A DNA stretch of 64,000 bases from Utricularia gibba (taxonomy: Eukaryota; Streptophyta; Magnoliopsida; Lamiales; Lentibulariaceae), in contig CM007992.1 of the NCBI GenBank assembly GCA_002189035.1, positions 1,054,001 to 1,118,000 on the forward strand, read 5' to 3'. The position numbers were made by a program, and so were the translations under genes. Of this stretch, positions 1 to 35,912 are shown one piece after another. The notes beneath the pieces were generated by a model. The model had not been told where the DNA came from. It saw only the letters and a list, made by a program, of their open reading frames with translations, and did no database searches. How positions within the stretch are numbered: the first letter of the stretch is position 1; the number at the start of each line of letters is the position of its first letter.

Positions 1-1944
1 AGAGACCTGGAGAGCCAGATTGTCCAGTAAGTTGAATCCAAATGCTTTTTGTGAACGTTTCTAGGAGCCAATATCAAAATATGTTTTATTTTCTTGATTG
101 CAGTACTTTCTAAATACCAAAAGATGCAAGTTCGGTAGCAGGTGCAAATTCAATCATCCTAAGGATTTAGGTGTGCTGCAGGTGAGACTTTGGGATGACA
201 ATCTCGCATCCCTAAACTATCAATGTTTCACTGGATGATGTGATCCAGTCCTGAAGGCTTATGATTTACTTTCAGGGAGGCCTTGAGGATTGTCCTTCCT
301 CTTTCTTGCCTGAGAGACCAACTGAACCTCAATGTGCTGTAAGATTCTTTCCAAAAAGATCTCATTTCAACCTGAAATGAATGATTAAGTAGGGTGTGTG
401 CAATCAGTTCTATATGAAGACTGGGAGTTGTAAATTTGGTGCCACTTGCAAATTTGACCATCCTAAATGCGTGCAACCACAATCGGATGGAGATGAAAGC
501 GGCACACTCGGGCATTACAAAGTACCTGGAAATACAAAGCCAATTGATCTGTCTGTTTCCCCAGCATTGACTTATAACTCAAAGGGTTTTCCAATCCGAT
601 TGGTAGGTGTCAATGGTTGGAAAAGTGCTATGTGAGGATTTGAACTTTTGTTCCTTGATATTTCTGATCCCTACTTTCTTGCTTCTGTTGCTCAGGGAGA
701 AGAAGATTGCCCTTTCTACTTAAAAACTGGCAGGTTTGGTTATCCCCACTATCTTATAATAGTTGTTCCCAAATTCATGATGCACGTATACCTACTAAAG
801 TAATTGCTTCCTAATATGTTTTTCTACTAAATCAGTTGCAAGTTTGGGGCTACTTGCCGCTTTAACCATCCAGACAGATATGGTATGTAGGCTGACCGTC
901 TATACTTTTTTTATGTTCTTTTCCAGTCTGTCATTATTTTCACCAACCATCAATCTACGTGCATCAGCTCTCACACCTGGTCATCTAACTTCACCCTCAA
1001 CGAATTTTAGTATCAATGTTCCAACTGCTTCCTTGTTGTCAAATTTTGATCCCAGGCTGACACAGGCATCGACAAAGTTGGTACTTTTTTCCGTTTCTTA
1101 TCCATACGTTTGGTAGCTAGCTGATCCTCAACTCCCTTCACATGCCACTGAAGGGATTTTTTCTTTAAAGTGCTTATGGTTTCAGTTTTATTATCAATGT
1201 TTGTTTATGCTTGTCTTTTTTAATCTAATTTTTTTTTATTGTAAAAATGGTAGCACCATCTAGGGCCATTTGTTGCATTTATGCAGCGTTATTTTTATGT
1301 GACAAGATTTTTAGAATGATTTCCACTGCATATAATGCTGAGTATCTTTTTTCTTCTTAATCTTTTACAGCTTGGGTTGGTGCCTACGATTTATCCTCAG
1401 CGTCCTGGACAAACTGAATGTGATGTATGTACATTTACACCCTGGACCCCCTTCGATCCTCATTTTTCAGTAGTAAATCTGCTAAAGATAGAGTTTTGCT
1501 ATGCGTGTTCTCAGCCTTGAAACATCTGTTTCCGGCAATTTTACATATTTATGTACTTCCTTGATTTTGGAGTTCTTCACCCATGCGTTTCTTTTTGCAG
1601 TATTACATGAAAACCGGTTCATGCCGATTTGGGGGTAGCTGCAAATTTCACCACCCAATTGACCGATCTGCACGCAGTGTATCCACTACAGCACATCAAA
1701 TGGAAAACGTAAAGCTTACCCTGGCAGGACTTCCAAGACGAGAGGTAGTACTGCCTTAGCATGTGCACTATGGATGGATGCATAGCTTGCTCTACATTTT
1801 TTTGGCCTGGAAGCCAGTCTCTGTGCTCTGATCACCTTTTTATAGGATGCAATACATTGCCCGTTTTACATGAAGACGGGTACGTGCAAATACGGCGCTA
1901 CGTGCAAGTTCGATCACCCGCCCCGGGAGAGTTGGTGGCATTAG
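1..1944 (+). CDS. HUA1: HUA1-like CCCH zinc-finger RNA-binding protein (5' partial, 3' frameshift)
   Basis: Arabidopsis HUA1 (C3H37) is a nuclear RNA-binding protein with six CCCH fingers that promotes processing of AGAMOUS pre-mRNA. Exons I infer: <1-26, 104-181, 276-338, 408-602, 696-733, 836-882, 968-1080, 1371-1424, 1601-1744, 1846-1944; intron phases agree throughout. Five C-x8-C-x5-C-x3-H fingers are visible: exons 1-2 ([10 protein letters not shown]), exons 3-4 ([10 protein letters not shown]), exons 5-6 ([10 protein letters not shown]), exons 8-9 ([10 protein letters not shown]) and exon 10 ([10 protein letters not shown]). The sixth must lie left of the window. The linker [12 protein letters not shown] before finger 5 is typical of HUA1. 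After the last finger the frame breaks: it reads [10 protein letters not shown] and stops at 1944, whereas the next frame reads [19 protein letters not shown] and stops at 1985, which is the expected HUA1 tail. One C appears missing in 1921-1924. Family assignment is firm; the exact orthologue name is likely. Confidence 0.88.
1921..1924 (+). other. Apparent 1-base loss in a C run, HUA1 last exon
   Basis: The finger ends ...GAT CAC CCG and is followed by CCCC GGG AGA G. The family has H-P-P-P-G-E here, which needs five C. With four, the frame shifts and stops at 1942-1944. The shifted-out frame continues to encode a HUA1-like tail to 1985. Confidence 0.7.
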
Positions 1945-1985
1945 CCACATCCAAGAGCAGTGCTCGTGAAGAGATTGATGGTTGA

Positions 1986-2957
1986 GGTGCATGAGTCCAT
2001 ATTGCGTTGTTTCATGGTTCCACAGTGTTCATTCAGGTTGCATGAATGTGTTGTGCTGTTCTGTAGTCGATTTACTTCGGGTTTCAATATCTGGTAGCTA
2101 ATCTGCATTCCATGCTGGTGGGTCGCCGGGGCGGAAAATGGGTTTTTCTGGATCATTTATGTTGGAATTTAATTTAAAAATTGGATTAAATTTGTTGGAA
2201 AATCACCTAATTTTGGTAATTTTAAAATATTGAATTATTTAAATAATTATATTATTTATTTTAAAACTAGTTTATAAATGTATTTATATTATAATATTAA
2301 ATTATATATTAATTTAATTATTAAAATTTATAATATATATTTTATTTTATTAAATTTTACAATATAATTTTATATTATCTCATAAATAATTTTATAATTT
2401 AAAATTTATTTTATTTATATATTCTTAAAATTAATCATATTTTTTATATAATATAAAACAGAGCTTCAAATTATAAAACATAGAAAAAAAATGAAGTTTT
2501 ACTAAAATTTAAATTAGTAATAATTGGTAAATAAAATTGATAAAATAAATTGGTTGATTCATGAATTTTCATTTTTTTTGAGGGCATTCTAATTCTTTTT
2601 TTCATTGAAATGAGATCTTCAATGTATTTTAAGGTTTAATTTGGAATATCTCATGCTCTAGAGAATTTTTATAAAATAAATTTTATTATAAAAAATGAGT
2701 AATTCCTATATCAAAAAATAAAAAATTTATTATTTTAAAAAAATTGTAAAATTTCAATTTCTAATTTTTTTATGAGTATTATTTAATTTAATTTTTGATA
2801 AAAATTATACTAAAGAAAACCTAATATGTGGTAGTTGTTTTTTGGGTGAGGGTAGTTTACATATATAGTAACCAAATTTTTACACAACCAAGATAACCGT
2901 TTTCGTTTAGCTCTTTCCTCGTCGGACCCAATCACATTTAGCTCATGTGTGGCGAAA
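1986..2957. other. Intergenic: HUA1 3' region, extreme AT block, ABCD2 promoter
   Basis: No gene is seen. From about 2160 to 2820 the sequence is almost pure A/T with long oligo-A and oligo-T tracts, of the kind found in matrix-attachment regions. Around 2820-2957 composition returns to normal and should contain the ABCD2 promoter and leader. Confidence 0.6.
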
Positions 2958-5900
2958 ATGCTCTCTTCGTGGTCTAGAATGATCGGCGTGGAGTCTCCGC
3001 TCCATCTTCCGCCAGCCTCTCGGAGCTCCTTAAGCCTGCACGGTGGCGGACGTGGCTGCAAGATGAGGCACAGAAAGGCGAACCATGCCACCATGCTAAG
3101 GAAGCAGCAGGAGCTTTCCGGATTGTTTGGAGGGGATTCTTCCGGCCGGAGGTCCATTTGTGTGCGTTCCAGCGATTCCTCGGTTTCGTCGTCTCCTGTG
3201 ACACAGCCGGATGAGGTGAACGAGTTAGACAGCTTCTTATTGAGTAGTTGTCAATTCCGATTGTACTTGAAGTATTTATTATGTTATTTAGGATAACGCG
3301 GGAAGGAAGGTTCCTGATGTGCAAAGTCTGGTGAAGCGGCTTTGGAAAGTGGCAGCTCCTTATTGGTTTTCGGATGATAAAGTGCAAGCTCGTTGGCGGC
3401 TTGCTGCTGTTTTCGCTCTAACTTTGGGGACAACTGGAATTAGTGTTGGCTTCAATTTTTTGGGCCGCGACTTTTATAACGCCCTTGCCAGTACGATTTC
3501 TTTTCCCCAATCTTGAATAGCTTTGTTTTTGGTTCTGAATTTTTCATTTTTCTTGAGGAAGCCAATTAGCTGATTCTGTTTTGGTTTATGAAAGACAAGG
3601 ACCAGGAGCAGTTCAGTAAGCAGTTGCTGTACTATCTAGGTGCTTTTGCTGGTGGAATTCCGGTGAGCATATTGCTCCGTTTTTTTAGGTACATATGAAA
3701 AATCCTTCGTCATTCTTTTTGCTGTTTTTACGATCAATACGTATTTGGGTGCTTAATGTTATGAGATCTTTAAGTTCATACGTCTGCTACTCATTTCTTT
3801 TTTCTTGGGTCGTCCGCATTGGGAAAAGTTTTATAATCATGCCTTCCGTGTTTGAAAACTTTTTCCATATGGCTTTAAGTGGGTAAAGGATAGCGGTTTT
3901 TGTTTGTATTTTTTGGAAAAAAATATACTTGGTTCTGGCAATTTTCCAAACAAGGAATCTAAAATTTTATTAAACTAGCAGTTGGAGTCCTTACAATGTT
4001 TTTATCTTCTATCCTTGTTGTCTGGTATCAGCGGTTGACGGATCTGTGTTTTTCAGGTATTTGTTTTGAGGGATTATGCAAAAGATACTTTATCTTTAAG
4101 ATGGAGGTCTTGGATGACAAGCTTCTACCTGGATCGCTATCTAAAGAATCGAACATTTTACAAAATTCAATCTCAGTCAATAATTGACAATCCTGATCAG
4201 AGAATTGTTGATGATTTAAGTTCTTTCACTGGGACAGCGCTGGCATTTTCTTTGACTCTCTTTAACGCTACGGTGGATTTGATATCTTTTAGTAATATTT
4301 TATATGGTATTTATCCTCCTCTGTTCCTCGTACTTCTTGGTTACTCACTGGGTGGAACAGCTATCAGTGTGTTCCTTGGAAAGGTATTTTTTTGTCATCT
4401 CATGATACGTTCGAATTTACCATCTCTCTTTTCCTCAATTGTAACACGAACTGCGCCTTGGTTCGTCTTAGGGACTGGTGAATCTGAACTTTTTGCAAGA
4501 GAAAAAAGAAGCAGATTTTCGTTATGGACTTGTTCGCATTCGAGAGAATGCAGAGTCCATTGCATTTTACGGTGGGGAGGGAAATGAGACACAGTTATTA
4601 ATGCAGCGGTTCAGAAGTGCCTTCGATAATCTTAGTGTATGTGAAATCTCTAGGACTCCACTCTTTCAAAATTTATGATCTGCATTAGCAATCCCTTTGT
4701 TATGCTTCTCATAAAGATTTTCATTTTTTTTTCATTCCTAAGCAAGCAATATATTTTATGATTTGCATTCTGGATTTTAAGGGTACCTTATTATGCTCAT
4801 ATTTCACTGCAGAAACTGTTGATATCTTCCCGGAATCTGGACTTCTTCACCAATGGCTATCGATATCTTATCCAGATTCTTCCTGCAGCCGTTGTTGCAC
4901 CCATGTATTTCTCAGGAAAAATAGAGTTTGGTGTCATAAATCAGTCCGTCTCGGCTTTCAACCACATACTTGGTGATTTTTCTCTCATTGTCTATCAATT
5001 TCAGGCAATCAGTGCGTTCTCTGCTGTCATAGATCGACTAGGTATGCCTTCTTCCTGATGTACAATGTCCTAAAACTATTTTATCTTCCTCGAGTTTTAT
5101 AGTGATCAAAACTTCAATATATTGTCTACATTAGGTGAATTTGATGATCTTCTAGACTCAAATGAACCCGATACTGACTCCAAAGCGGTAGAAATTTCTC
5201 GGTCATATGCTGATACAAGCAATCCTCTCTCTCCTAATGGGTCTCTACCCCTTGGAGGCAGTTCGAGGTTGTTGCTATCTATCAAGCACTTAACTCTTTT
5301 GACCCCAAGCAGAGCCACCCTTATCAGGGACTTGTCATTTGATGTTTGTGAAAAGGAGCATCTTCTGGTCAGTATTTCTCCTAGATTTCTGTTCAAACAA
5401 AAACTGTTCTGCTGATTTTCCCGGCCCATCAACAGATTTCAGGACCCAGTGGGAGCGGCAAAACATCATTATTAAGGGCAGTGGCAGGTCTTTGGAGCTA
5501 TGGAACGGGCACAATCACATTCTACGACAAGTCTCATTTTGGTTCCATGAACCAAGAGGGAATAGAGACACAAAGAGTATTCTTCCTCCCACAAAGGCCT
5601 TATATGGTCCTAGGAACACTACGACAGCAGCTGCTCTACCCTTGTTGGAATGAACATTCAGCAACTCCCTCGGACACCGATAAACCTGTTGAAATGAACG
5701 GTATTTCACCTTTACCAGGCCAAGTTCTGCATTAGGCCAGCTCCTTACTGATCTTTTTTCCAGGTTCCTTGTCTTTCTTGACCCCTGCAAAGAACGTCGA
5801 TGAAGAAACAACCAAGCCCAGCACAGATGATCTAACTCAAGCACTTGAAAACGTTCGACTCGGCTACATATTGTCCCGTTTCGACCTCGACTCCACACAG

Positions 5901-6286
5901 GAATGGTCCAGTGTTCTTTCCATTGGTGAGCAGCAACGCCTGGCGTTTGCACGACTCCTTCTCGCAAAACCCAAGTTGGTCCTACTGGATGAGTCCACCA
6001 GCGCCCTGGATGAACCCAACGAGGTATTATCCACTTCCGTACAATCAACATTCCAATCTTCACACACTGTGCTGATTTTGATTCTCCGATCATTCATCAG
6101 GCGCATCTGTACCGCCTCCTCGACGACTCCGGCATCACGTACATAAGCATCGGCCACCGTCGAAGCCTTTTCGAACACCACAGAAATGTTGTGTACATAT
6201 CACCATTAGAAACATCCAGCACTCACCTCAACTGGAGCTTTGAACCTCTAGACAAGGACTCTGCTCCCTCCCCATCTTCATACTGA
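2958..6286 (+). CDS. ABCD2: ABC transporter D family member 2-like (half transporter, plastid-predicted)
   Basis: Half-size ABC transporter of the ALD/ABCD family: one membrane domain then one nucleotide-binding domain. Arabidopsis ABCD2 is predicted to be chloroplastic; its substrate is not established. Exons: 2958-3215, 3292-3490, 3595-3662, 4057-4383, 4472-4636, 4813-5041, 5135-5367, 5436-5700, 5764-6023, 6101-6286 (729 aa). The first 85 residues are rich in S and R and poor in acidic residues, like a transit peptide. The membrane part carries the family motifs [10 protein letters not shown] and [18 protein letters not shown]. Walker A is GPSGSGKTS (about aa 496-504), the signature is LSIGEQQ (about 634) and Walker B is LVLLDES with the D-loop SALDE; the H-loop is ISIGH. 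The signature is LSxGEQQ rather than LSGGQ, as I recall for ABCD2. The ATG at 2958 is chosen because the reading frame upstream lacks another ATG. Confidence 0.92.
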
Positions 6287-6896
6287 ATGAGGTAACCGAT
6301 GCCCTCATTCTTCAGGTTCAAACATCATGTATCGCTGGTTTTACTTAGTGCAGAAGCGAATCATTTTTTTTCCTTATCCGTACAACCAAGTGGTTGTGTT
6401 TTGTCTGTGTATGGTGGTTGTGTCAAGAAAACTTAAAAAGTCACCGAAGAGATATTTAGTAATATAGTATATTTTAATTATTTACGATTAAAAAATATGT
6501 ATTACATAGTTAAAATTAAAAATTTGATACTTATTTTGTTAGATGATATTCGTTTCTTATATCTAATATTTAAGATGCGTTTGATTGTTTGATACAAAGT
6601 GAGTATAAGTAACTATTTATTTGATATCTTATTGAATGTTTAACTATTTTATAGATCAAAACCTACATATAATATTTTATAAATCTAATTTGTAGGTATT
6701 TTTTAAATCTACTAATAAAAGATCTCACGAGGAACGGTGTGGGCAAAAAGGGGAATGCGTTGTTTGCCAAGCAACCGCGTGTTTATTCGAAGCATAAGTG
6801 ATGCCCATTTGAAGTGTTAAATGGCGAGGGACACGTCGTCGCTGCCGAGGCAGGCACCGCAGGTTTCTCATCTCCGAAGGTTGCGCTGACGAAACA
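6287..6896. other. Intergenic: ABCD2 3' end and VTE1 promoter
   Basis: AT-rich DNA without a supported gene. A short segment near 6565-6600 (gatgcgtttgattgtttgat) resembles terminal sequence of plant MITEs, but I could not define an element. The VTE1 leader begins somewhere after about 6725. Confidence 0.5.
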
Positions 6897-9742
<2,846 letters not shown>

Positions 9743-10853
9743 TCCAAAGCAGCCAACCCTTGAGGCTCACTTCCTCCCAAGCCAAGGCTATATGCTACCG
9801 TTCCATCATCATAAGCTTCTTTTGGAACATTTGTTTTGATTAGAGTTTTAAATAATTTTAAAAAATCTGAATCGTTTGTACAAACAGTTCAATGTTTGGA
9901 CGTTTGAATAGGGCTGTTCAAACTATTCAATTATGATTAAATCAATAATTAGATCGTAAATTATAATTTAATTATGTTTGAATTGTGATTAGGCCATAAA
10001 TTTTTTCTATTTCAAATTTTTATTGATGATTTAAAACGATTCAATTGTAATTTAATTACGATTTTTTAAACATTGATTTTGACAAAGTATTCATATTTCT
10101 TCTTCTAAGAAAACATTTATTTTAATAAAGGAAAACGATTAGTTTTTTTGTAGAAATTTATTTATTGATTTTATTTTTTGAAATAAAATTATTTATATTT
10201 GATTATGATAACTGTTTTTGGAATTTTTGTATTGAAATAAAATTTATTCGGTTTTAATATAGAGCAGTAATTGGATCATATTCATGTGGATGTTTGCCAA
10301 AAATCATGCACATTTAATGTGAACGGCCCAAGCTTATAATCATGTTCGGAAGCCCATTTACTATGAAAGGCCCAAGACCAATACCATCTTCTTCTCAGAA
10401 AAGGCCGACTATTAACCGCGAGGGCGTGAAATCCGGCCGTCGGCCCAGCGCAGTTGCTCTCCCGCCTTCTTCTTCTTCTTCTTCGATTATACTCCTGCAG
10501 CGGCTGGCTGTCTATCGTTGTCTTCTTCTCGCGTGTTTCATCGTTGGCGCAAGCTTCAAGGGTTCTCGAATTGCACGAGTCCTCGAACGAATTTCCAGTT
10601 TGGGCTGTACGTCAAGAGGGGCTCAGGACTTGGAGTTTGGTAAATTTATCTTTTTCTTTATGAGCTCTGATTTTTGTTATGATTTTCCGAGGATGTTCTA
10701 ATGAGCTCTAGTATGCTTCCACTGTTCTGTCTACTAATGTTGTAGGGTAAAAGGAGAATCAGATTTGTTGATATATCTGGTGATCGCGGTTCTATATACA
10801 TATATAGCTCATTAAAGAAGGCGGGAAGTGTTTCTATGTTTTCTCATGCAACC
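9743..10853. other. Intergenic plus NRPA1 promoter and leader
   Basis: 9743-10330 is AT-rich and carries repeated short words such as attcaattatgattaaat. From 10330 the composition becomes normal, with a (CTT) microsatellite at about 10466-10484. A possible leader intron runs from near 10640 (tttg/gtaaattt) to near 10745 (ttgtag/ggtaaa). The open frame at 10342-10701 has no recognisable protein content and is taken as leader. Confidence 0.5.
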
Positions 10854-13800: not shown

Positions 13801-16800
13801 GATGCACCCTGGAGCTACAACTTATGTTGATAGTGTAGCTACTGTCAAGTTGACCATGCAGAAGAAAGCCCGTATAGTAATATCCCGAAAATTGCCTTCC
13901 TCCAGGGGTGAAGCTACACAAGTAGAGAAGAATCAGCTAGATTTTGAAGGAAAAGTCGTCTATCGCCATTTGCAAGATGGTGATGTTGTGCTTGTAAATC
14001 GTCAGGTATACAATGTGATGGTATTCCTGTACTCATCTTAGGTTCACAATTGATTTTCTGAAAATGGTCATCGACGAACCCAAATACTATATGCATCCAC
14101 CTCTGTGTTTCTGTGCATGACTGTATTATTTTTTTTTCTTCCTAAAGGGGCATTCCCACCCCCATTCCTATGGCACATTGCCTCCATCCGTTGCTTTAGC
14201 TGCCTAAATTGGCAGGGCACCTTTCCGCGATTGAGAAGGAATGCATGACCCATGACCTGATTCAAACCCTGCAGCTCGTATTTTTTTTATATTTGATGCT
14301 GTAAATTTCTTAACTACGGATATCTTTTTTTGTCCCTCTGTGAGAACTAAGTTCTTAACACCAGTCAGTAAGACCTTTTAGTAACATACATAGAACGAAA
14401 ACTTGGATTGTGGTGATTCTGATGTGATTTTTTATTCACATTTGATTTAGACACTATTTGACTGGATGCATTTTCTTCCCAGCCTACCCTTCACAAGCCG
14501 AGCATAATGGCTCATGTTGTCCGTGTATTAAAAGGGGAAAGGACACTTAGAATGCATTATGCAAATTGCAGGTGAGGCATTTTTTTTTATTTATGTTCTT
14601 TATTACTGTTTCCATTTCGTTTAAATCATCCACTTAAGAGACTCTTACAGAGTAACAGCCAGTGTTATTCCCGCGGGATGGGGTGTATGTTGTGCTGATG
14701 TGGTCTTATGGTTTTGCCATCTTTTTAGTTGTAGATGTTTTCCTGCAATATTCGTATATGAAATAATTTTGTACTTGGATTATGGCATCATGCTCCAAAT
14801 TCAATCATCACTCATTAACTATTTCAAATTAATTGTTTGAATGGTGTCTTACATCTTATGCTGGCTACAGTTCATATAATGCTGATTTTGATGGTGATGA
14901 GATTAATGTTCATTTCCCCCAAGATGAACTCTCTCGAGCAGAAGCTTACAACATAGTGAATGCCAACGAACAGTACATTGTTCCCACAAGGGGTGATACC
15001 GTGAGAGGCTTGATCCAGGTTTGAATATTAGTGCTAGCAATTATTAGCTGTGCACTAAAGCCTTTTTTCCATTTTTCCTTTATATTCCGACTTTGGTTCT
15101 CTTTTCTATTCATATTTTCATGTTAAATGTGTTATATTTGCTTCACAAAAAATGCAGGATCATATAGTTGCTGCTGTGCTTCTCACCCTTAAGAGTACAT
15201 TTCTTACTCGTAGTGAGTTTAGCCAATTGCTTTATGGATCTGGCGTTTTTGCATTTGGGACTCGATCAGTTCTTGGTAGCTGTTCCAGTAAAGTATCACT
15301 CCTTGACTCAGAAGGGTTTTTAGAGTCTGTTTTACCAACAATATGGAAACCAGAGCCTCTCTGGACTGGAAAGCAGGTAAATCTTGCCTGTTCGCCAATT
15401 TCTATTATTGTTCTCGAGGGTTTCACATAATATGATCTCAAATTGGATGTATTATTTTAGGTATTAACTGCAATAATGTTATGGTAATTAGCCGTGTTTT
15501 GTTTTTATCCAGGTCATTACAGCATTGTTGAATTACATAACCCGAGGTTCCTCTCCATGTATCATAAAAAATCAGGCTAAGCTTCCAAAGAGCTACTTTT
15601 CTGATGGTTCTAATAAGCAAGACGAAGATGAAGACCAGAATGCTGAAAACAACTTGTTAGTTTGGAAAAATGAACTAGTTCGTGGTGTTATAGACAAGGC
15701 CCAGTTTGGAAAGTATGGTTTGGTGCACACTGTGCAGGAGCTCTATGGATCTAAGAGTGCTGGAATTTTGCTTTCTGCTTTAAGTCGCTTATTTACTGTC
15801 TTCTTACAGGTGCTTCTTATGTAAATTCTGTACTCCCTTTGAAATATGCTAGTGATGATTCAGTCTTGCAATTGAAACGAATTCTTTTTGTGTATCATAG
15901 ATGCATGGTTTCACATGTGGCGTTGACGACCTTATGATATTACCTCAATATGATGCACGAAGGAAGGAGAAACTTGAACAGGATGATGTTGGCGAAGAAG
16001 TACATTGTGATTTTGTTAAGTTCAAACCAGGCCAAATAGGTACCTTTTTTGCATATGCTTTGTTAAACAAGTCCCATAGCAGTATGCTTACTTTTATGGT
16101 TCTTCACTTTTGTACATAAGGTCTTGAAGAGCTCCAGTTGGAAGTTGAGAAAGTTTTATCCAGGGACAAGGAATCTGCCACTGCATTTTTGGATATGAAA
16201 ATGAAAAACAATTTAACAAGTAAACTAACCAGGGAAGGTTCCCAAGTACTGAAGCATTTACTGACTGATGGCTTGCTAAAACCATTCCCAAAGAATTGCA
16301 TCTCTGTCATGACAACAACTGGGGCAAAGGGCAGTACGGTAAGTTTAGACTCCTTAATTGCAGATATGTTAAGTTGATGCATACTACTTTTAACACCAAA
16401 TGCATGAAATTATTAGGGTTCTTTTTTTTCTTTTTTTGTTAAAAGTCACATTTTGTTTTGACACCGTATACTCTAGTCATCTTAAAACTTTTGGGATGTT
16501 CACCGTTCCTTTTGATCTCAAAGGATTCAATGTTCTGCATTGACTGTGAAATTTACTCCGTAGATCTTTTATTTCTTTACTGCCTTTGTATTTATAATTT
16601 TTTAACATGAAAAATAAAACATTGTGTATTGTAATAGGTGAACTTCCAGCAAATATCCGGCTATCTTGGTCAACAAGAGTTGGAAGGTAAACGAGTGCCA
16701 AGAATGGTGTCTGGGAAGACATTACCCTCTTTTCCTCCGTGGGATTATACATCCAGAGCTGGTGGTTTTATAACAGATAGGTTCCTTTCTGGACTACGGC

Positions 16801-19538
16801 CCAGGAATACTATTTCCATTGCATGGCGGGTCGTGAGGGGTAATGGCATGCTTTTTTGCTCACTTTCATTTATCATCTTGATGATGATATGCCGAATTGG
16901 TCTACTCGTGCATTCAACTAAACTGCTGTGTTGTGCAAATATAGGTTAGTTGACACCGCAGTAAAAACATCTCGTAGTGGATATCTGCAAAGATGTCTTG
17001 TGAAAAATTTAGAGAGCCTCAAAATTTGTTATGATTATACTGTACGCGATGCTGATGGTTCCATCATCCAATTTTATTATGGTGAAGATGGCGTGGATCC
17101 GCACAAGACAAGTTTCTTGAAGAATTTCAAGGCGCTAGCAGATGTAATGTTCAGTATTCTTTATTTGGCTTGCATGGAAGCTATCTTTTGTTCATTATCT
17201 TCTTGAAAAAATGTATTCTTTTGCAGAATCAAGAGACTATACAAGAGAAATTTCAGAACAAGCATGAATTCGATTTTTATATTAAAAAGTTGCCTGATGG
17301 CCTTGAAGAAGAAGCAAGATCCTTTGCTAAAGAGGCGTATTGGTCAGGAAAACATGCATCTTCATCCCAGAATTTGCATAAAAGTCGTGGGAAAAGTAAA
17401 AAGCAGCTCATAGGCAAGCATAAGGCAACTACAAAGGATCATGACATATTCATGGAGCTCTTGGTGCAAAAATATTTGTCAAGTCTGGCACCAGCTGGAG
17501 AACCTGTGGGCGTCATTGCTGCTCAGTCCATTGGTGAACCATCGACCCAGATGACGTAAGAGTTACATTTCAATGTAAAGCAGTAAATTATCATGAATGC
17601 GTAGCTTTTATAAAATAAACAAGATTTTCTATTCTAAGCCTCTGTTGTTGATAAAAGGTGTTTAGAATGGAGTATTCCTGTGCCTAACCCATTGGTGTTC
17701 GACTTTAATTTATTTGATGTGCTCAACTCTTCATAATTTGGTTTTAATGCATTTTCAGGCTGAATACTTTTCATCTGGCTGGACGTGGTGAAATGAATGT
17801 TACTCTAGGTATTCCCCGCCTCCAGGAGATTCTGATGTCTGCATCAGAGGTAATTAGAACTCCTGTTGTGACCTGCCCTTTCTCACGATGGAGATCCAAG
17901 TAAGTTCCTGCATTTCATCTGCAACCATGCGAGTGATAAAAAATGTGAATACGTTTAGTCAATTCTGCAGCTTTTGAAGAGTTGGTATTCTTTTCCTGCA
18001 TTATGCAGTGATGTTCTGAATAATCCTTATCATCATAAATACTTAGCCTTCTGTGGATGACATTGCTGGTAATGCTTGTCTTTTCAGAGATGAGGCTGTG
18101 TCTGTTATTGCAAAACTGAAGAAGGTCACCATAGCGGATTTGGTAGATAGTATGCATGTTGAATTCTCCTTTCACGAGAAAGAAGTTGCTAGAATTTATA
18201 AACTCGAAATGGAGCTCAGAGACACAAAGTTTGTCTCATTGGGAGACCTGCGGGAGACGCTGAAGACCACTTTTATGAAGGAAATGGAGAATGCATTGGA
18301 AAATCACATAATATTTCTCTCCAAAATCAACCATATCAATAATGCCACCTCCGGTAGTTCCACAGTCGATGCGCCAAGCGATGGTGATGAAGATGAGTCT
18401 GGTGACCAACCACCAGAAGCGGAAGATGATGATGCGGATGATAATTCAGACAAGGGAGATGATCTTGGTTTAGACTCAGAGAAGAGAAGACAACAATCAA
18501 CGGATGAACTGGACTATGAGGACGCATGTGACACAGAGCTTGGAGAAACAGAATTATCCACAGGTGGAAAAGAGGAAAGCCAGGGAGACTTTGAGGATGA
18601 TGCTGATAATCAAGAAGGGGTTGAGGATGGGGATAGGAATGACGATGAGAACCTTGATGATGAAGATAACACTACAAATGATGAAGTCGACACAGATGTT
18701 GTACCGCAATCCGAAGAATTTATGCTCTATCCATCGGATGATAAACCAAGGCGCAGGGGTGTCTTCATGAAATTTTCTGACTGGTCCTTTGAAGTCCATT
18801 TCAAGCTAACCACCGAGCCGCATATACTCCTCACTCAGGTACCATCCATGTCTTGTGGTGCTCCTTTCAGCCTTCAGTTATGAAACCTTTTGGAGATGAA
18901 AATAATGCTGTTCCTTCTTGAACCTACAGATCGCTCAAAAAGCTGCGAAGAAGGTACTTGTCAAGAAGTGTGGCAAACTCAGCCAATGCAAGTTGGTTCA
19001 GCATGACCCGGATGAGAAAACAGTGATCTGGGACAACAAGAAAAAGCAAAAGGATAGTTCAGGCAGAAACGACGACGACGGCGACGAATCCGCTTACTGG
19101 GCAGTGAAAGCATCTGGATTAGACTTGAGGTCCTTCTGTGAAACGGCAGATGATCTAGACCTCAGTCGTCTCTACACAAACAACATCTACGGGATGCTTC
19201 AGATGTATGGTGTGGAAGCTGCCAGAGCAAGCATAATCCGAGAGATGAAGCATGTGTTCGACATATACGGAGTCAAGATCGACTACCGGCACCTGAGCTT
19301 GATCGCCGACCGCATGACGCACACTGGGGAGTATACATCGATGAGCAGACACGGATGCATTGCGCAATCCAATTCGCCGTTCCTCAAGATGTCGTTCGAA
19401 ACTGCATCGAAGTTCATTGTGGAAGCTGCAACATACGGGCTAACGGACACCTTGGAGACTCCATCTGCGAGGATTATATTGGGTCGCCCTGTGAATGTAG
19501 GTACTGGTTCATTCGACGTCATGGAAAATCTTGCATGA
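10854..19538 (+). CDS. NRPA1: DNA-directed RNA polymerase I largest subunit (internal frameshift)
   Basis: Catalytic subunit of Pol I (RPA190), which makes the rRNA precursor in the nucleolus. Twenty exons: 10854-11014, 11115-11274, 11393-11734, 12072-12272, 12348-12527, 12798-12960, 13200-13390, 13745-14005, 14483-14571, 14871-15018, 15158-15376, 15513-15809, 15901-16039, 16121-16338, 16638-16839, 16945-17143, 17227-17555, 17759-17899, 18088-18838, 18930-19538. About 1666 aa if one base is restored, the normal size. Seen: N-terminal zinc site [17 protein letters not shown], a second CRNCEARNP, catalytic NADFDGD (about aa 586-592, genome near 14880), bridge-helix region (exons 15-16), trigger-loop block [17 protein letters not shown] (end of exon 17 and exon 18), and a long acidic stretch at about aa 1308-1420. 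Exon 15 lacks one base (16800-16802), so the written sequence would stop at 16947. An upstream in-frame ATG at 10836 is possible; [10 protein letters not shown] is preferred. Confidence 0.96.
16800..16802 (+). other. Apparent 1-base loss in a C run, NRPA1 bridge-helix exon
   Basis: The sequence reads CGG CCC AGG AAT ACT ATT, giving RPRNTI. The family has [15 protein letters not shown], and that exact sequence is present one base out of register (CAG GAA TAC TAT TTC CAT TGC ATG GCG GGT CGT GAG). Exon 15 is 202 nt, one short of what the flanking exon phases require. Confidence 0.85.
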
Positions 19539-24424: not shown

Positions 24425-24790
24425 GGCGGGAACAGCCAATCCGAAACAAAAACCCACTGGAAAGCGTTCGAGTCCACAAAAAGGAAATGGCTTTTACGTC
24501 AAGCTTCCACCTCCAAATGCAGAGCGCAGTGTACGGAAGCGGACGTGCGACGTTCTCAGCCGACCAAACCAGAGAGGCTTTAGTGGCGCGCTGACGAGCC
24601 ACTGGCGCCAAGGGAACCACGTGTTTTACTTGTGGACTCAGTTTTTTTCATTAATTTATTTTTATTTATTAATTACTGCAATCATATTCGTTGATAAAAG
24701 TACAAATAAATCGATTTTTAAAAAGTGAAGGGAAATCCATTATCCACTTCACTGTGTAGTGTGTACGCTCAATTTTCAACGGAGACGCTG
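24425..24790. promoter_or_regulatory. Divergent promoter between ABC1K3 and metacaspase, with G-box
   Basis: The 366 bp between two start codons facing away from each other must hold both promoters. A palindromic G-box CACGTG lies at 24618-24623, inside AACCACGTGTT. G-boxes bind bZIP and bHLH factors linked to light and ABA responses; its use here is inferred, not shown. Confidence 0.6.
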
Positions 24791-26114
24791 ATGGCGAGGA
24801 GGGCGGTTCTCATCGGCTGCAACTATCCGGGGACCAAGGCGGAGCTCCGAGGCTGCATCAACGACGTCCACCGCATGCACGCATGCCTCGTCCAGCGCTA
24901 CGGCTTCGCTGAGGAGGACATCAAGGTTCTGATCGACACCGACGAGTCCTATACGCAGCCAACAGGACGGAACATCCGTGCTGCTCTCGCCGATCTCGTC
25001 GGATCCGCAAGCCCTGGAGATTTTTTGTTCGTTCACTACAGTGGCCACGGCACGCGCCTCCCGGCGGAGAGCGGGGAGGACGATGACACAGGCTACGATG
25101 AGTGCATCGTTCCCACCGACATGAATCTCATCACCGGTAGGACTTTAACAACTGCCTGAGCGAGTCCTAGATTTATGGCATTCGCTATTTCGCGATCTGA
25201 ATTTGGGAATTTGTTTAGATGACGACTTCAGAGATCTTGTGGAGAAGGTGCCAGAAGGATGCCAGATCACGATTGTTTCCGATTCTTGTCACAGTGGAGG
25301 ACTGATCGATGAAGCTAAGGAGCAGATCGGTCATAGCACAAAGTCGACCGAAGTTGGAGGCGGTGGATCCACTTTCGGACTCGGTAACTTCCTTCGAAAA
25401 ACCGTCACCGACGCAATCGAATCTCGCGGAGTCCACATACCACCGGAACTGGGACTCGGCCACCACCACAGACGTCATCAGCAACAAGAACCCCAGGAGG
25501 AACAACTAGAAGGGCACCACATCAAGAACAAGTCTCTGCCACTATCAACCCTCATTGATTTACTCAAGCAAAAAACAGGTAAAGATGACATAGATGTCGG
25601 CAATGTGCGACCTACCCTTTTCGATGTATTTGGAGACGAAGCGAGCCCCAAGGTGAAGAAATTCATGAACCTCATCTTCAGCAAGCTACAAGGACAAGGC
25701 CAAGGAAGTGGCAGCGGGGGGATGATGGGGATGGTGGGTGGATTAGCTCTGCAGTTTTTGCAGAGCAAGCTGGAAGACAATGGTGGAGGTTACGTGAAAC
25801 CTGCAGTACAAACACCAGTTGGGAAGAAAGAAGAAGCATACGCTGGTGCAACAAAAAGGGGATTACCTGACTCTGGTGTCCTGATAAGTGGCTGCCAATC
25901 TGATCAAACATCAGCTGACGCAAAACCATCTGGCGGTGAAGCTTATGGGGCTCTGAGCAACGCAATTCAAACCATAATTGCAGAATCGGACGGGCAAGTA
26001 AGTAACCGAGAGCTGGTCAACAAGGCAAGGGAGCTGTTGAAGAACAAAGGTTTCAGTCAGCGACCGGGACTGTATTGCAGTGATAACTTCGTTGATTCTT
26101 CCTTTGTTTGCTGA
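24791..26114 (+). CDS. MC4: Type II metacaspase (MC4-like)
   Basis: Calcium-dependent cysteine protease that cleaves after Arg or Lys, involved in wound response and cell death. Two exons, 24791-25136 and 25219-26114, give 413 aa; the intron splits the codon of the first Asp in DDDFRDL. The p20 domain shows catalytic His86 in HYSGHG and Cys139 in SDSCHSGG, the positions I recall for Arabidopsis MC4. There is no N-terminal zinc-finger prodomain, and a long linker separates p20 from p10; these define type II. The linker contains a His/Gln/Glu-rich patch ([17 protein letters not shown]) before [17 protein letters not shown]. The p10 end has [16 protein letters not shown] and [21 protein letters not shown]. 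Its position beside FGT1 supports the MC4 assignment within the MC4-MC8 group. Confidence 0.95.
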
Positions 26115-26567
26115 GTGCCCTCGTCTCTCTCTATTGGTCTCACTCATTGGACTTCGGTTTGCTTTTTCTCCTAATTCTCCTGTTTGAGTGTTCGTGTGCA
26201 GTTGAGTTGTTTGCCTTCCCCTCGGCTCCCTTCGATTGCATGCTCTTTGGTGGATGTTTTCTCTTGTACAATACATGATCTATGAAACTGGTGAAAGGTA
26301 AACTAAACGTGACAGAGATACTCTCTTATGAACATCAAAAGAGCATCAAGCAATTGCCTGCATGCCTACAGAAACGCAGGTGTGTATGTACATAGCAGCA
26401 ATGGGAGGGATATGCCCAGAGAGCTACTACCCATTTCATGATAACAATAAGGAAGCTGCCGGTATAGCCAATGTAATCTAATCTAAACTAACCTAAGCTA
26501 CATTGGGACCGCAGCATTCGCATCAAAATATTCAAAATCCAACGCCATTTCCATTCACAGCTTTGGC
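26115..26567. other. Convergent intergenic region, metacaspase and FGT1 3' ends
   Basis: 3' untranslated sequence of both genes; nothing else is recognised. Confidence 0.6.
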
Positions 26568-29500
26568 TTAAGCGTGAGGTGTGATCTCTTGTTCATCTTG
26601 ACCCCATGATAAATCTGCCACCCGAAACGCCATTTTATCACACTTGGGCCATTTCGTTAATTAGTAGATAAGGTTGGCACAGAGAGGGCTAGAAAGTACC
26701 TTGCAGAACTGGTTTTACTGCCGCATTGGGAATATGAAGTCCGACGACTCGTTGATGGTCCGAGGTAGTTTCTATACGGATGACTCGTATCCTTCTATGG
26801 CTTTGGCGAACCTGCAACGAATCACTTGTAGGTTATACCAGCTACATGTATTCAGATTTCAGGTAACGGGAAAACAAATTGGTTTAGTCTGAATGCAACT
26901 GATTTCATGGATTAATGTGAAAGCAACTTGGTTTCAGTTTATGTTCAGTAGCAAAGTTTTAGCATCTCGGAACGGAAATGGAAAACAAGCATAAGGGGCA
27001 GAATTACCAGCTTCGAAAGCGCCTTTTCAATAGTACCCCACACAGGAAGGATGAGGCCACCCAAAACATTGACTTCTTGTAGTCTTCTGCCTACAGTACA
27101 GAAGCTCCCAACCTTGCAGTTTGGACCGTGCATACACTGCGTATTAAACCATGAATAAGCTATCCTGCAACATAATTGGAAAAAAACACATTGCACAAGC
27201 ATGTCTAAACTAATCAATAAAGCCTCGCCTAGATCCAGAGACCTGCAAGAATCTATCAACCATCACAAAACTTGTGAATGTATCATATATAGTACCACAA
27301 CCCATGTTGGAATGACTGGTTCGCAATGGTTCATATCGCAGCTTCTTTCCATACTACATATAACAATCTCCACCAACAACTTCTATCTGAAAAACAGCTC
27401 CCTACCTGCTTGGATGATACTTCATATTCATCTTCCCAACCACTTCGAGCCTTCTCAAGGGATGCTAGTTTTTTGTACTTGTCTTTTAGCTCTTCCAAGG
27501 GCAGCTCCCTAGTTATTGAAGGCAACATTAGAAGATCTGTACATCAAACTAACAGAAAAACAATCGAGATGTATATAGTATAGTATTTTTAACGCACCTG
27601 AATGACTCCCCAACTGTTGGCCGATATATCTTGTAGGACCCGGATGCAGAACTGAATTGGCCCAGCAAAGAAAACAAATAAAAATTAGTTACATACAGAC
27701 TTTTCACATTTCTTGCATATGGAGTGCAACATACAACAACAAATGCATATCTGAGAGGAAAACAAGGATCAGTATATGTGGAAAGCATAATCATCAGTCA
27801 GCTAGAAATGCAAGAAGTTATCTAACCAGATAATAAAAAATAAGAAAAGTTACAACACTCTGCTAGGAATCACGATACTGACATAGCCATCACATCTTTC
27901 TGGAGTACTAAGAATGGATAGAAAACAAGAACTATAGCATGCCCATCCGCAAGGAAAAACAAGCAAACAAGACACTTAAGTTCCAGGGAACAAGATCCAA
28001 TTAGAAGCATTGTTTCAATCCAAGTTAAATGCATAAGACCCGTACTTCTCAAAAGCTAAAATAAAGTGCCTTCTTCCCATCCATTCTCTCTTAGATTCGT
28101 AGAACCCGTTGTCACTTGAACAAGAGTCATCTTTCTGCTTCTCCTCCAGCATTGCTGATGCATACTAACAAAGCACAACAGCTGTCAAGCCTTACACTAG
28201 GCGATGGTCATTTTAATTGTTTGATAGGATGAAAAAATAGATATCCAAAGTGAACTAACAAGCTTACCTCCCAAGTAATTCCTCTATCCAACGAGAAAGT
28301 AAACAGCACAGTGGCTGCACCGGACAAGCTATCAACATGAACAGTCTGCATCATATGGATGTCAAATTAATTGTTTTGATTGTCAATTAATAAATAAACA
28401 GAGAATTTCAGAACCTTTGGCTTCCCCTGCATTCCTATGATGTTAGCTCTCATATCAACAATTCCTGAATCCAAATGTCCCTCAACACGTGCATTCTGCA
28501 TGAGAAGGTGGTGGATGTTTACAAACAATTCAAACAACCTGCAAGGCCATCAAATCTATTATCCCTAGTATCAACGAGACCAAAGACTAAAATACAACCA
28601 TTGATTAGGATACCTATTCTGGATCTCAGGTGGGAGTCCTAGAAGTCGGTTGAGAAACCGTCCTACATCATGCATGTCAGACTCAAGAATGCGGCCTGAG
28701 ATCTTTCCTGGATCTTTCCCATCACCTGGAGAGAACTCATGAATAAAAGACAAAAGGAAAAAGATTTAAGAATAATAAAATATCAAGGCCAATCACATAG
28801 GTATATTTTATTTAAATTACAAATATTTCACATTCAAAAACATAATTTGCATTTATTCGAACTCTAGAAGCATAATGATGTCAATGAAGGAACCCACAAA
28901 TTCATCAAAGTAAAATTGAAGTCGAAGTTCGGAAGATACTCCAGCCTACCAAGAACAGAATCTCTTATGATACCAACAGATACAAGGGCAGCCCTTCCCT
29001 TCACAAGGAAGTCTTCAATTGTCTCAGGTCTTTCAGATGAGCAACCTGGTGGATCAATTGGTAATGCTTCCTAATATTATAAGACAACACACAATGAGCT
29101 CGTTATAAAAAATAAAAAATTGCACGAAATTCATCACACAAGCACCTGCTCCATTATTCCCTTGTATAACATCATCAAGGATCTCTTTCCATATGTGCTA
29201 TCATAATTATAAGCACTCAGAGATGGTCCAGCCCTGTAAATACACGATACTGTAAGCTCACATGTAGGTAATGGGTAAAAACTCCAGAAATCCATCTCAA
29301 ATATACAGCCATACCTACGATCACCCTGGGTTAATGCTCCAAGGGACTCAAGTCTCCTGGCCACAATAGATGCGAATCGGCGTTCACCCCCAAGATTTGT
29401 AAAAAGCAACCTTCAATGAAAAATGATAGCTCATATGATAGTTTTTCCAAGACAATATACACAGGAGCACATCCCTGCACTATTATTAATAGATGTGTAA

Positions 29501-32500
29501 CTGCATGCATAAAGATTAGAAGATCAAGCAAAATCATTGAAGAAAAAACATTCAAAACTTGAAGAGAAAAATAGAAGTGCCAACATGCTGAATAACATAA
29601 AAAAAAAAGCTCCACACATCATTTGGGTCGTAAGGAGAAATGGCTTGTAACAAATTAAAAGTGTTGTCTCAATACAGAATATCGAATTGCTTAACAATAT
29701 TGTCCTACAAAGTGAACAGAAGCCAAAAAAAAAGGCCAATTTGTTCCAAAAGCTATAGCCTACCATGAAATATTTACACAAGTGAATCACTACCTATACT
29801 CAGGTGCTGAAGTTTGATTTGATCGATGGGTTCTTCCAAACTGTTGAATTGCTCGTTCTGCACTCCAAGGTAATTCCAGAGTTATGTGAACTCTTCTTTT
29901 CTGTTAAAGAACAGCAATGAAATTAAAATTGTTAGAACTCCATACAAAGAGATGAAACAAGTGGTATATATGTATATCTACCTGATTGAGTGCCCGTCTG
30001 TCAGCCTGCAATGAAACCCCAGCAGATCCAGCCTCAGAAATTATAGCTACAAGCTTTTTGCCATCCATGAATAGCTGTTTTTCATGCATGTTAACCATTT
30101 CCATGTTCACATCCTTCCTAATTCATCCACAGCAACTGACACTTAGCCACAAGAATTCCAAAGAGGGGCTTTATAATAGAAACTCACGTGTTCCGTGTCT
30201 GATACAAGACACCCTTTCCCTCAGATGCTCTGACAAGCATCCCTCGCCTGCCTGTTATTTCTGCTACCTTACTGGGGCCCCCAAGCTAGACCCGACATGG
30301 AAATCCAGACTATGTCACTGATCATAACAAAGGAAATTTTTGTATAGATGATGGTTTACCTGATCAATTATATCATCCAAAGGGTTGCTGGGAAGATCCA
30401 AAGACCTTATAATTTCTAAAACCTTCAGTTTACGTTCCAGTGCTCCATCATATCTAATCACCATTTGAAGTCCATAATTAGCTAACAACATTGCCACACC
30501 CACGTGTATGTTACAGAAAAAGTTTCCACAGGTTTCACCTTCCTCGTAATTCTTTATAGTAGGCTTCTTTAGCTCGGAGATAATCCTCTGTTTTTTCCTT
30601 GCATGAATGACAAGACCAGTCCCCATAAACTACTTCTACAATTGGTGGGTCCAGACATGCAGGGTGAGCATGCTGGTTGCAACACGAACACTGAAGTAAT
30701 TTCTTTTTATCCTACCCACATGCACCACAGACCATCAGTACGTGTAGGTATGGAAATGGAGTGCATAAAAATAATAAAAACACTCAAACTGGTACTCTAA
30801 TCCTTGAAAAAAAGGGAGAGCAAAAAAAGATACCTCGTCCGAGCGGCAGACATGACATATCTGGAAATCATCATCAGATTCAGAATCAGGGTCAGTGTCA
30901 GCTGCATTCACAGTAGAGAGTGTGAGAATCTGGGCCAGAAAGAAAAGAAGACAGAAAAAACACGCTGCAAACATGAAAGTTCATGCATGCAAAGAGAAAA
31001 ACAGAAGGCCGGCTATACATCAAACGATGGAAAGAAGCTTATGCAGAAGATGAAGACCAAGATGGCATATAACTAGGGAAGATGAAGAGATGGGACATAG
31101 GTGTACAAAAACGCTTCAATGCTGCATTGAAATAATGCAAGATAAAAATGATTGTTTCATATGTGATTTTATAACAAAGAACTTAGCAGATTACTTTCTG
31201 ATTTCCAATCACTTTCATCTTCACTGCCAGCATCTAATTTAGCAATTTTTTGGGTTCTCCCCTTAAACGAAATATCAGCTGCTACAGCATGCCTCTTTCT
31301 CTTAATCTCTTCTGGAGTTTCTGCATAGCAAAGTGAGTCAACACTCAAGAATCATATGATATAAGAAAAATAGCCTTTACAAATAATATAGTACCAGACT
31401 CAGGCTCTGGCATAGGTGGAAGGGGATAATTTTCATCCACAAATTTGAGCAATACTTCACGAGGCCCAGATATAAAATCATCAAGTTCCAGTCCCTATAT
31501 CAAGCAAGTTTTAGAGATATTTTAAAAATCAAAATTTCTTAGCATGGATAACGGAAGAGCTTGATGAGCTAAATCTCAACATAGGATACTTGGCATGCAG
31601 GAAAAAAAAAACACTTAAAAAAGTAAAATGATCTAACATATTTTGATACTGCTTCTTCTGTCCGGGCTTCTCCAGTACTCTGTAAGCCTATGACAACACA
31701 CTTATCTTCTGACAATGCTTGCTTGGCAATTTTAACCACTGCAGGCACCTTTGCAGCCATGCACATGTGCCGAAAGAACCGCTAAAAAAAAAATAGAATT
31801 AGTGAAAGAAGGAGAGGCTGACAACGGGTAGAATGAGGAACAGAGTTAGAACCAAATGCTCAACAAACGACCAACCTGGTGGCTCGACCAGTAGAGTCTC
31901 CACAACTGACTCAAACTAGGCTTTTCGCTGTCTAAAAGTGTGCTTGCAGATAGAAATTCAACTCTTAACTCCACCCAAAATGCAGCTGACTTTTCATACA
32001 TATCCTGACAAAGATAATACAACAAGTGTGACAAAAATCACTTTAGAACAATCATAGGTACTTATAGTCCAACTATCTAATGACTTCAAACCAGAGATCA
32101 TTCAGAAATTCTTTTATATTTAAGCCAGCAGCTAGCATTCACGCTACAGCCCATTGCTGTCAAAATGATACTGTATATTTATTCACAATTAAAAAAATAA
32201 AAGAGCAAGAGGACTAAGATAGGAATGGGGCTTGAAGATATCGAACGATAATGGATAACGACAGGTATAAAATATATCTATACCACTGGTTCACAATTGC
32301 AACAAGAGAAAAAAAAAAGATCACACAGCCTAACGAAGTTCACCTTTTCTATGCAGATAAGAAAACTGAAAGGTGCCCAGTATAGATAAATCTAAAAAAC
32401 TTAAAGGTAAAAGGTCACAAGCAATACCCTCATATCATCTTCCAGGGGAACTTCAACCACTTCAAATTCTGAACCTCTGTAGCTAAGAGTCCGGCAGACA

Positions 32501-35500
32501 TACATCCCCTACAAATGAATAGTAGAAGTTTAACATGATTCTGGAAAGAAATTTTTTAAAAAAATGCCCTCTGATATTCTAACATATGAATGACCTTGAT
32601 TTCATATCCATAGCTACAAGTTCAAGAGCTCCAACACCACCTTTCTCTATGGAAACTGAAAAAACGAAAAACAAGGAATGCGTGATAAAACAAGAAGCCT
32701 GCATACCACAGGAAATCACTAGGTATAATGACTGGAATACCAAACTGTTCAGAATGGATCGATCTACAGTCAAATTTCTGGAAGATAAACATTGCTATCA
32801 GCCTAAGGAAGTGATGCCAGTGATAACTAGGTATCAAGAGAGATAACTTCATTTTTCTATATCCAACACTTACAGGAAGACCTTGCATTGATCCATCCCC
32901 ACCATCTTAGTATTGAACAAATATAGCTTAGCATTGAATAAACTCCAACCAAATGGATAAATGACAGCTAATTCTGTACCTAAAAATTCACGAAAGTCTG
33001 CAAAAGACGTTCCAGCACCCCAAAGACCAAGACGGGCCATATATCCCATATTACGTGGTTCGGAAGCACCAGTTGCTGAGCAATAAAGAACACGAGCTTC
33101 AGGAAGCTTGGCCTACATTGTAAGATTTTTAACCAGGGGTAATCATTATCCAATAAACAATGTACACATATGTGCTGATTTGCACAGCACTTCATCAAGC
33201 ATACGATAGAAGAAACAAAAGCTATACCTGAATTTCAAGAACAGCTTCACCAGTCTTTGTTGGTTGAGATCCAGCTTCAGGTACCAGATTTTTGGCTTTG
33301 TGACACTAAAACACGTCAGTTAGACATCTTGCACTTTCGCATGAAATCCAAAGCAGCCACACGAATGTCAATTCTAGCTAACAAAAGTTACAGAGCCATC
33401 TGCATTTCTTCATACCTCATCAAACACAATGAGTCCATCAAATTGTCCACACCACTGAACAAGTTGTTGCAATCGAGAACGACCTTTTTCAGATGAGGCA
33501 ATGAGACTACTGTATGTCAAAAACACAACACCTTCCCTTATGCCAACGGATTTTGAATCGAGCTTAGAGTAGGGAAGCTTGTTCAGTGCATGCACTACAA
33601 TAGAAAAATGTGCTGTAGTAAGCGTAAACTGCAGCACTCACACAAGATCAAAAACATAGCAGAAGGGTATGCTTGTTCTATGTTCTTTTCATATTAAATA
33701 AAGGTAGTAATTTAATGGTGGATTCACTTCCCTCAGTCAGTCTCATTGGTCATTGCTCAACAATATGGACAAGCCAAAATGCAAGATACATGCACTAAAA
33801 GGCTATCAAAAATTGAAAACCAAAGAATAAAATTGGTGAAGCCTTATATGGTTTATAATTTGGAATAAGAATATACAAGTTGTAAAAAAAAAAAATCATC
33901 CTAATGATTGAGTTTGATTCTTCCATCAAAATCGAAACGAGTCAAATAAAAGCTGTCACAATGAATGAACAGATTCCTAACAAAAAAAACAATATACCTT
34001 CTACACAAGATGCTCCCACATCATCCAAGTCCCTTCTAGCATCATATTTCAAGTCTGAACCAACAGAAATCCACCTGTACACTATCACTAAATTAGTATG
34101 AGATCATCGAAAAGAGAAATGGACACGTATGTTCAATGCAAGGAATAATAGAAAAGGCATGAATTAACATTTAGGACCACTGCAAGAAGTATATGAACAA
34201 AAAAAGCATGAGACGGATGAATCTCACCCAACACTTACAAGGCTTTTCTTCTTCCATGCTGCCAATTTTCCCAAATCAAACCAGCTATTGTCCTTCCTTT
34301 ACCCATACCAGCACCATCACCAAGAAAAAAACCCGCTCTAGCACCATTTCCCAAGTGCTGAAGATGTCTCTGTTTTGACAAAACTGATCAGAATGATGAA
34401 ATCGAAAGGACACAAATGTCAAGCAAAATCTACAGCAACCTGACAAGCATAGACTAATGTTTCAATCTGTAAGCATGAAAGTGCCTTCGAACTCTCCAGT
34501 TCGTCCTGAATCTTGAGAACATATGTAGGCTCAGGTGGCTGTGCTGCGGATAAAGAAGAAGTCTCCACAACTGCATCTGGATGGGATGGGCCAATGGACA
34601 ATTTAGAAGGCCTCTGAAAAATGAAGAAGAATTAATTGGAAGCACCACACAAAAAAGCAGCCATAAGCGATAAAGATTTGGACAAAAAACATACATAATC
34701 TGTAAATGTGTCTGTAGTCAAGACACCTTCATCTTCTTCCTTCTCTACTTCAATTGCAGCCTGAAATAAACAAAGGGAAGAGCATATCAAACTGCACTTG
34801 CAATGAATACAAATCAAGTGATAGACACTGAAGAAAACCTAGCTATTACAACCAGGACAGGCTTAATTTTTCTTATTTTACGCTCATCAAACTGATGACC
34901 CTCATTCTGGATCGAAATATCTGGCACTTGGTTGTCAATTTTTAGCAATGTCAATAGAACTTTTGGAAGTTACTACAATTACTGTAACATTAAAAACAAA
35001 TATATAAATAGACTTTTGCATATGCCCAAGGGATCACTCTAGTGAAAACCTTTTTTTGTTGCATCTGTAGCCACAGTTGTCTTTTAGATAGGGTATAATC
35101 AATACCTCACACCATGCTAGTGCATTTCTGTCTACTATGGCTGTGTTGCAATACCGAATCACCATACTACAGCACATGAATTATTTTACGAGGTTGAGAA
35201 TTACCTATAGGTTTCATAAATGAATTTGGCAGCCATTTAATGGAATATCAAAAAACTTTAATGGATGCATGCAGATTAAGAAAAATAATCTATAGCTGGA
35301 ACTAATTTACTCAAATTTGATATCTTCAAACGCATGATATCAAAACAACCTAAAACCCCCATTACCAGAAAATCTAGAGCGCTATCAAGAATACCCTGGT
35401 ATAAATGTTGTCTTCCCGTTTAGTTATGCTCTGACACGCTGCTATCCACAATAAAAGAGGAGACCACAAGAATGAACAGACAGAGAATCTACCTCATTAA

Positions 35501-35912
35501 CTTCTTCTGGAGGCAAAATATGGCCAATTTTAGACGGATCAACGGCCAGGCTAACTGAGCACTGGGGGCAGCTAAACCGAGACAAACCGTGAGGCACATT
35601 CAATAAGGCCTTACAATTGGCACAAGGAAGCTGAATCTTGGTAGGATCAATGCCGTGAGCTAGGGCATTTCTATGTTGCTGCCCCTGAGACTGCAACTGA
35701 ATCGATTTCATCAATTCAGGAGGGAGCATTTGGGGCAACTGGCAGGATGGGCATACAAACTCCGTCAAACCAGACAACACCGTGAGCACCATTTTACAAC
35801 GGGCGCAGCGCACCTGGCAGCCTCCATTAACGAAAGGTCCCTGCGGCGGAAGAGGCGACACCGCCGGCGGAGGAGCGATCGAAGGCGGCGGCAACGACGA
35901 CGGCTGCCCCAT
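26568..35912 (-). CDS. FGT1: FORGETTER1 / strawberry-notch helicase-like protein (internal frameshift)
   Basis: Plant orthologue of metazoan Strawberry notch. In Arabidopsis it sustains heat-stress memory by keeping nucleosomes open with SWI/SNF and ISWI remodellers. I trace 32 exons, from 35912-35493, 34760-34695, 34613-34440, 34369-34239, 34074-33998, 33594-33416, 33305-33228, 33112-32980, 32655-32595, 32508-32428, 32004-31876, 31781-31638, 31494-31395, 31320-31195, 30901-30834, 30711-30539, 30453-30360, 30285-30188, 30117-29982, 29900-29794, 29410-29315, 29233-29146, 29070-28950, 28725-28614, 28538-28415, 28345-28268, 28164-28046, 27651-27598, 27508-27406, 27136-27008, 26811-26700 to 26614-26568; about 1252 aa if one base is restored. 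Seen: two N-terminal zinc ribbons ([20 protein letters not shown]), ATP loop [28 protein letters not shown] finger ICHVC...CSCC...CHSC split over exons 15-16, and helicase C motifs [16 protein letters not shown] and [11 protein letters not shown]. Exon 10 is out of phase by one base (see 32506-32509). Confidence 0.94.
32506..32509 (-). other. Apparent 1-base loss in a C run (G run in the gene), FGT1 exon 10
   Basis: Exon 9 ends AAA TCA AG with two bases left over, so exon 10 should begin G GGG ATG to give K-S-R-G-M-Y-V-C. After the acceptor AG only three G remain, leaving [10 protein letters not shown] one base out of frame; as written translation stops at the end of exon 10. All other 31 exons agree in phase. 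A different splice site is less likely, because no other donor fits. Confidence 0.65.

Follow-up and report, generated by a model that had tools for sequence, protein, structure and literature searches.

Four conserved genes in one stretch of the Utricularia gibba genome each lose their reading frame at a short run of C or, on the opposite strand, G. This raises the question of whether the plant carries four broken genes or whether the assembly misreports four intact ones. The stretch, hereafter called the window, comprises 64,000 nucleotides (GenBank assembly GCA_002189035.1, contig CM007992.1, positions 1,054,001 to 1,118,000) and sits on a contig that we designate C4, in an assembly of 100.09 Mb and 516 contigs. 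We consider the four frame breaks to be, with a probability of roughly 0.93, residual consensus errors of a long-read assembly (PacBio CLR, HGAP/Quiver-type). Judging from the sequence, the four genes are almost certainly intact in the living plant.

At each of the four sites, the run was read directly and the exon limits were picked by eye at GT/AG sites. The last exon of HUA1, a CCCH zinc-finger gene (1846-1982, + strand), loses its frame at a CCCC run (1921-1924, + strand) that is one C below the conserved frame. Likewise, the last exon of VTE1, which encodes tocopherol cyclase (9422-9593, + strand), loses its frame at a CCCC run that is one C short (9570-9573, + strand). The NRPA1 exon in which Rpb1 domains 4 and 5 of the RNA polymerase I largest subunit meet (16638-16839, + strand) contains a CCC run that is one C short (16800-16802, + strand). 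FGT1, a strawberry-notch type helicase gene, is on the minus strand, and its exon at 32428-32508 starts at the shortened run (32506-32509), which reads CCCC on the + strand and GGGG on the gene strand and is one base short. The splice acceptor AG has its G at position 32509; one of the four run bases thus belongs to the acceptor, and the exon starts with three. The original prediction that these four genes lose their frames at these runs, and that one extra C restores each of them, agrees with the runs as read and with the exon models in which a C has been added. It was also correct that the base missing from the minus-strand FGT1 gene is a C of the + strand.

The restored frames are supported to different degrees. 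NRPA1 is an essential gene, and its site is the most secure of the four. The NRPA1 exon with one C added reads on from Rpb1 domain 4 into domain 5, the corresponding model matches RNA_pol_Rpb1_5 with 145 bits, and its alignment to solved RPA1 chains is ungapped across the site. The exon as it stands, up to its stop, gave no RNA_pol_Rpb1_5 match. For FGT1, addition of a C raises the AAA_34 score from 21.4 bits to 62.7 bits, a gain of 41 bits. HUA1 with one C added reads ...KFDHPPPGELVAL... (exons joined by eye). Two in-genome CCCH rows (C236 and C505; 52% identity) span query positions 39-82 in a single frame, and both continue past residue 70, where the HUA1 frame breaks. VTE1 is the least supported of the four sites. 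With one C added, a stop comes soon after the site in the restored frame, and the C-terminal end located there is one that we take to be conserved in plants. Because the Pfam Tocopherol_cycl match stops at residue 105, short of the site, our assignment of the last VTE1 residues comes entirely from reading. Elsewhere in the window, ten single open reading frames were scanned, and seven of them have Pfam matches: UGT, the two MC4 pieces, two pieces of ABC transporters, and two MYB-type frames.

We surveyed the assembly for similar breaks using four families, PPR, GRAS, KCS, and BAHD, that were chosen as intron-poor. A break was classed as clear if one base is missing at a C or G run, a judgement made by eye through comparison with motifs typical of each family. 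Since one-base C/G loss is built into this definition, the clear count alone cannot prove the error spectrum. From the PPR_2 list, 150 of 3306 candidates were scored and 68 distinct loci were counted by eye. We took 40 of these 68 loci: every one of the 17 whose open frame does not exceed 530 aa, and 23 of the 51 with longer frames. The PPR rate is therefore enriched for broken genes. A PPR profile was built from matches within the 40 loci, and repeats found in more than one frame were flagged. This marked nine loci (L006, L007, L013, L014, L015, L016, L018, L023, and L043), three of which (L014, L016, and L023) were left out on account of introns or a gap. For GRAS, KCS, and BAHD, adjoining pairs of rows in different frames were read by eye where no more than 60 bases separated the two rows or were shared by them (L044-L069, L097, and L098). 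Junctions L048, L060, L062, and L069 and the first junction of the L059 gene were left out as introns, and L051, L061, L063, L068, and L098 were left out as damaged or unclear copies.

Outside the window, this survey yielded 19 clear one-base losses at C/G runs, spread over four unrelated families and 12 contigs. The six PPR loci that were kept hold seven switches, of which four are clear (L013, L015 twice, and L043) and three are ambiguous -1 switches (L006, L007, and L018). Ten clear losses are in GRAS genes (L044 second site, L045, L046, L047, L049, L052 twice, L053, L055, and L056), one is in a KCS gene (L059), and four are in BAHD genes (L064, L065, L066 second site, and L097). These three families contain seven further ambiguous -1 switches (L044 first site, L050, L054, L057, L058, L066 first site, and L067). 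All ten ambiguous switches fit a one-base loss, and some of them may be losses of A or T. In the stretches that were read, the frames on either side of the survey sites are open and on family. The L056 gene lacks a row covering profile positions 1-109 and may carry further changes. Over the 165 kb of matched sequence, the 19 clear losses correspond to one per 8.7 kb, or one per 5.7 kb if the ambiguous switches are included (29 in all). Within the PPR spans, clear breaks number 4 among 769 C/G runs of at least three bases versus 0 among 2000 A/T runs (p = 0.006), a difference that weakens to p = 0.10 if the three ambiguous switches are all at A/T. The recurrence of the same type of loss in unrelated conserved genes favours a systematic consensus error.

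Five GRAS genes (L045, L046, L047, L044, and L049) are broken at or beside one common Gly-Gly-Pro-Pro motif, at which the observed runs are 4, 5, 6, 4, and 6 bases long. Twenty intact GRAS genes were fetched, and the motif was found in 16. Reading of the printed codons by eye gave runs of at most 4 inside the motif in these intact genes; the computed run maximum, which includes flanking codons, is higher than this motif-only reading in L080 and L095. The broken and intact genes overlap at an observed length of 4, and L080 is intact with a C6 run just past the motif. This comparison of 5 broken with 16 intact genes, made after the fact and at one motif, is suggestive of breaks being more frequent at longer runs. 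The codons of the motif, which form C/G runs, are likely to be a hot spot for false pseudogenes. Two of the 16 intact genes, L088 (C316:31891-32241) and L089 (C412:854264-854614), have identical GRAS stretches. L088 is on a 38 kb contig and L089 is on a large one, so small contigs may repeat large-contig sequence.

A further break of this kind is found on C516, a plastid-like contig of 172,489 bases whose long frames we take, by their length and order, to be rps2, rpoC2, rpoC1, atpB, rbcL, and psbB. While rpoC2 (1373 aa), rps2, and further long frames on this contig are open, accD (L073) breaks at a G7 run (C516:71890-71896) into two frames that overlap. The frame beyond the run is intact and matches the carboxyltransferase family in Pfam. 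The frame upstream of the run is presumably the start of accD, and a Pfam search of it returned no recognised match. Two of four further plastid pieces (L071 and L072) are mostly N. The plastome was considered as an error-free control and rejected, because the accD break at G7 means that the plastid contig is not error-free. Taken together, the five GRAS breaks at one motif and the plastid accD break favour a reading error over mutation.

Were the breaks in the window true loss-of-function mutations, then either the four genes or the alleles that were sequenced would be decaying. Such decay would suit a genome that contracted following two recent whole-genome duplications, as described in PMC8333044, and a few family members with stop codons do look really damaged (C3:261 kb; C413:4947 kb, which is L063; and C244:2105 kb, which is L098). 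However, no close second copy of HUA1, VTE1, NRPA1, or FGT1 is among the in-genome matches listed, and the joined exons on either side of each site showed no further lesion. Moreover, other genes have the same type of lesion at C/G runs with open frames around it. We regard decay as very unlikely. The short runs could also be real and tolerated by means of polymerase slippage at C/G runs or ribosomal frameshifting, slippage presumably being prone to occur at homopolymer runs, but such tolerance would need to act on a plastid gene in addition to unrelated nuclear genes, and at C runs as well as G runs, and we find it scarcely credible. We give just as little credence to a mixed case in which some C/G runs are truly short, the plant shortening them unusually often and transcriptional slippage correcting them in both nucleus and plastid.

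All four losses in the window are of a + strand C, as would be expected from a strand-specific fault of contig C4 that takes only this base. Such a fault is extremely unlikely, given that four losses would be alike by chance with a probability of 1/8 (1/16 for four C) and that, of the 19 clear breaks outside the window, 9 fall on C and 10 on G when read on the + strand (in L097, for instance, a + strand gene breaks at a C5 run). Pooling the window with the survey gives 13 C among 23 losses (two-sided p = 0.68). On contig C4 itself, a single PPR gene (896-899 kb) has a G loss at C4:897324-897326 and a C loss at C4:898397-898399, so a comparison of C with G runs elsewhere on this contig goes against a loss of C only. 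The original prediction of a systematic consensus error in short C runs therefore stands as a systematic error in short homopolymer runs, which recurs in conserved genes across the assembly, and its restriction to + strand C falls away. Since C and G are about equally frequent outside the window, the uniform + strand C of the four sites is attributable to chance in a sample of four. For residual consensus errors, we would envisage that C or G runs, mostly three to seven bases long here, are sometimes called one base short, and that this shortening strikes either strand. We infer both the platform (PacBio with HGAP) and a cause in sequencing and consensus calling.

Some copies in the surveyed families are of a different kind. 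L063 is best read as having lost an A. The GRAS copy L098 (C244:2105347-2106219) has several lesions and one switch that is not -1, and it is probably a real pseudogene. The DCL3 truncation reported in PMC8333044 was considered as a possible victim of the artefact and rejected; it is said there to rest on transcripts and 5' RACE, and it does not look like a C/G-run loss. The probable DCL3 locus is C213:2761967-2762970, within L075 (C213:2754001-2764000), and it was assigned by elimination because the RNase III pair there lacks a Dicer_dimer row. Among forward frames of at least 40 aa, examined by eye from approximately position 2753501, no helicase-like frame was seen in the roughly 8.5 kb upstream of this probable DCL3 RNase III pair, which is in line with the published truncation.

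If the breaks are errors, then the sampled families in the U. gibba assembly would have a false frame break approximately every 6-9 kb of conserved coding sequence, a rate whose PPR part is enriched for broken genes, and false breaks would be more frequent where long C/G runs occur. Truncated or lost genes claimed from this assembly alone would need to be rechecked at such sites. The finding itself is most likely an ordinary one, an assembly artefact and not biology.

According to Table 2 of PMC5793159, U. gibba was assembled with HGAP from SMRT data at 88x, with a contig N50 of 3.4 Mb. A literature search for C/G-run base loss in the U. gibba assembly found no description among the matches listed. 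One-base losses are not always errors, since PMC5644110 describes a one-base G deletion in a PacBio assembly that is backed by nine of ten reads. Kastor (PMC12007338) was made for small genomes and works with a curated reference set, but it deals with the same effect, in which frameshifts give intact genes the look of pseudogenes in long-read assemblies. A close parallel comes from PMC4832174, in which a bacterial PacBio assembly, Quiver-polished at 262x, kept 205 indels, nearly all of them in G or C homopolymers. Those indels were counted against Illumina reads in a bacterium, whereas ours are deduced from protein conservation in a plant; the likeness is that one-base-scale indels would survive consensus, nearly all of them in G or C runs.
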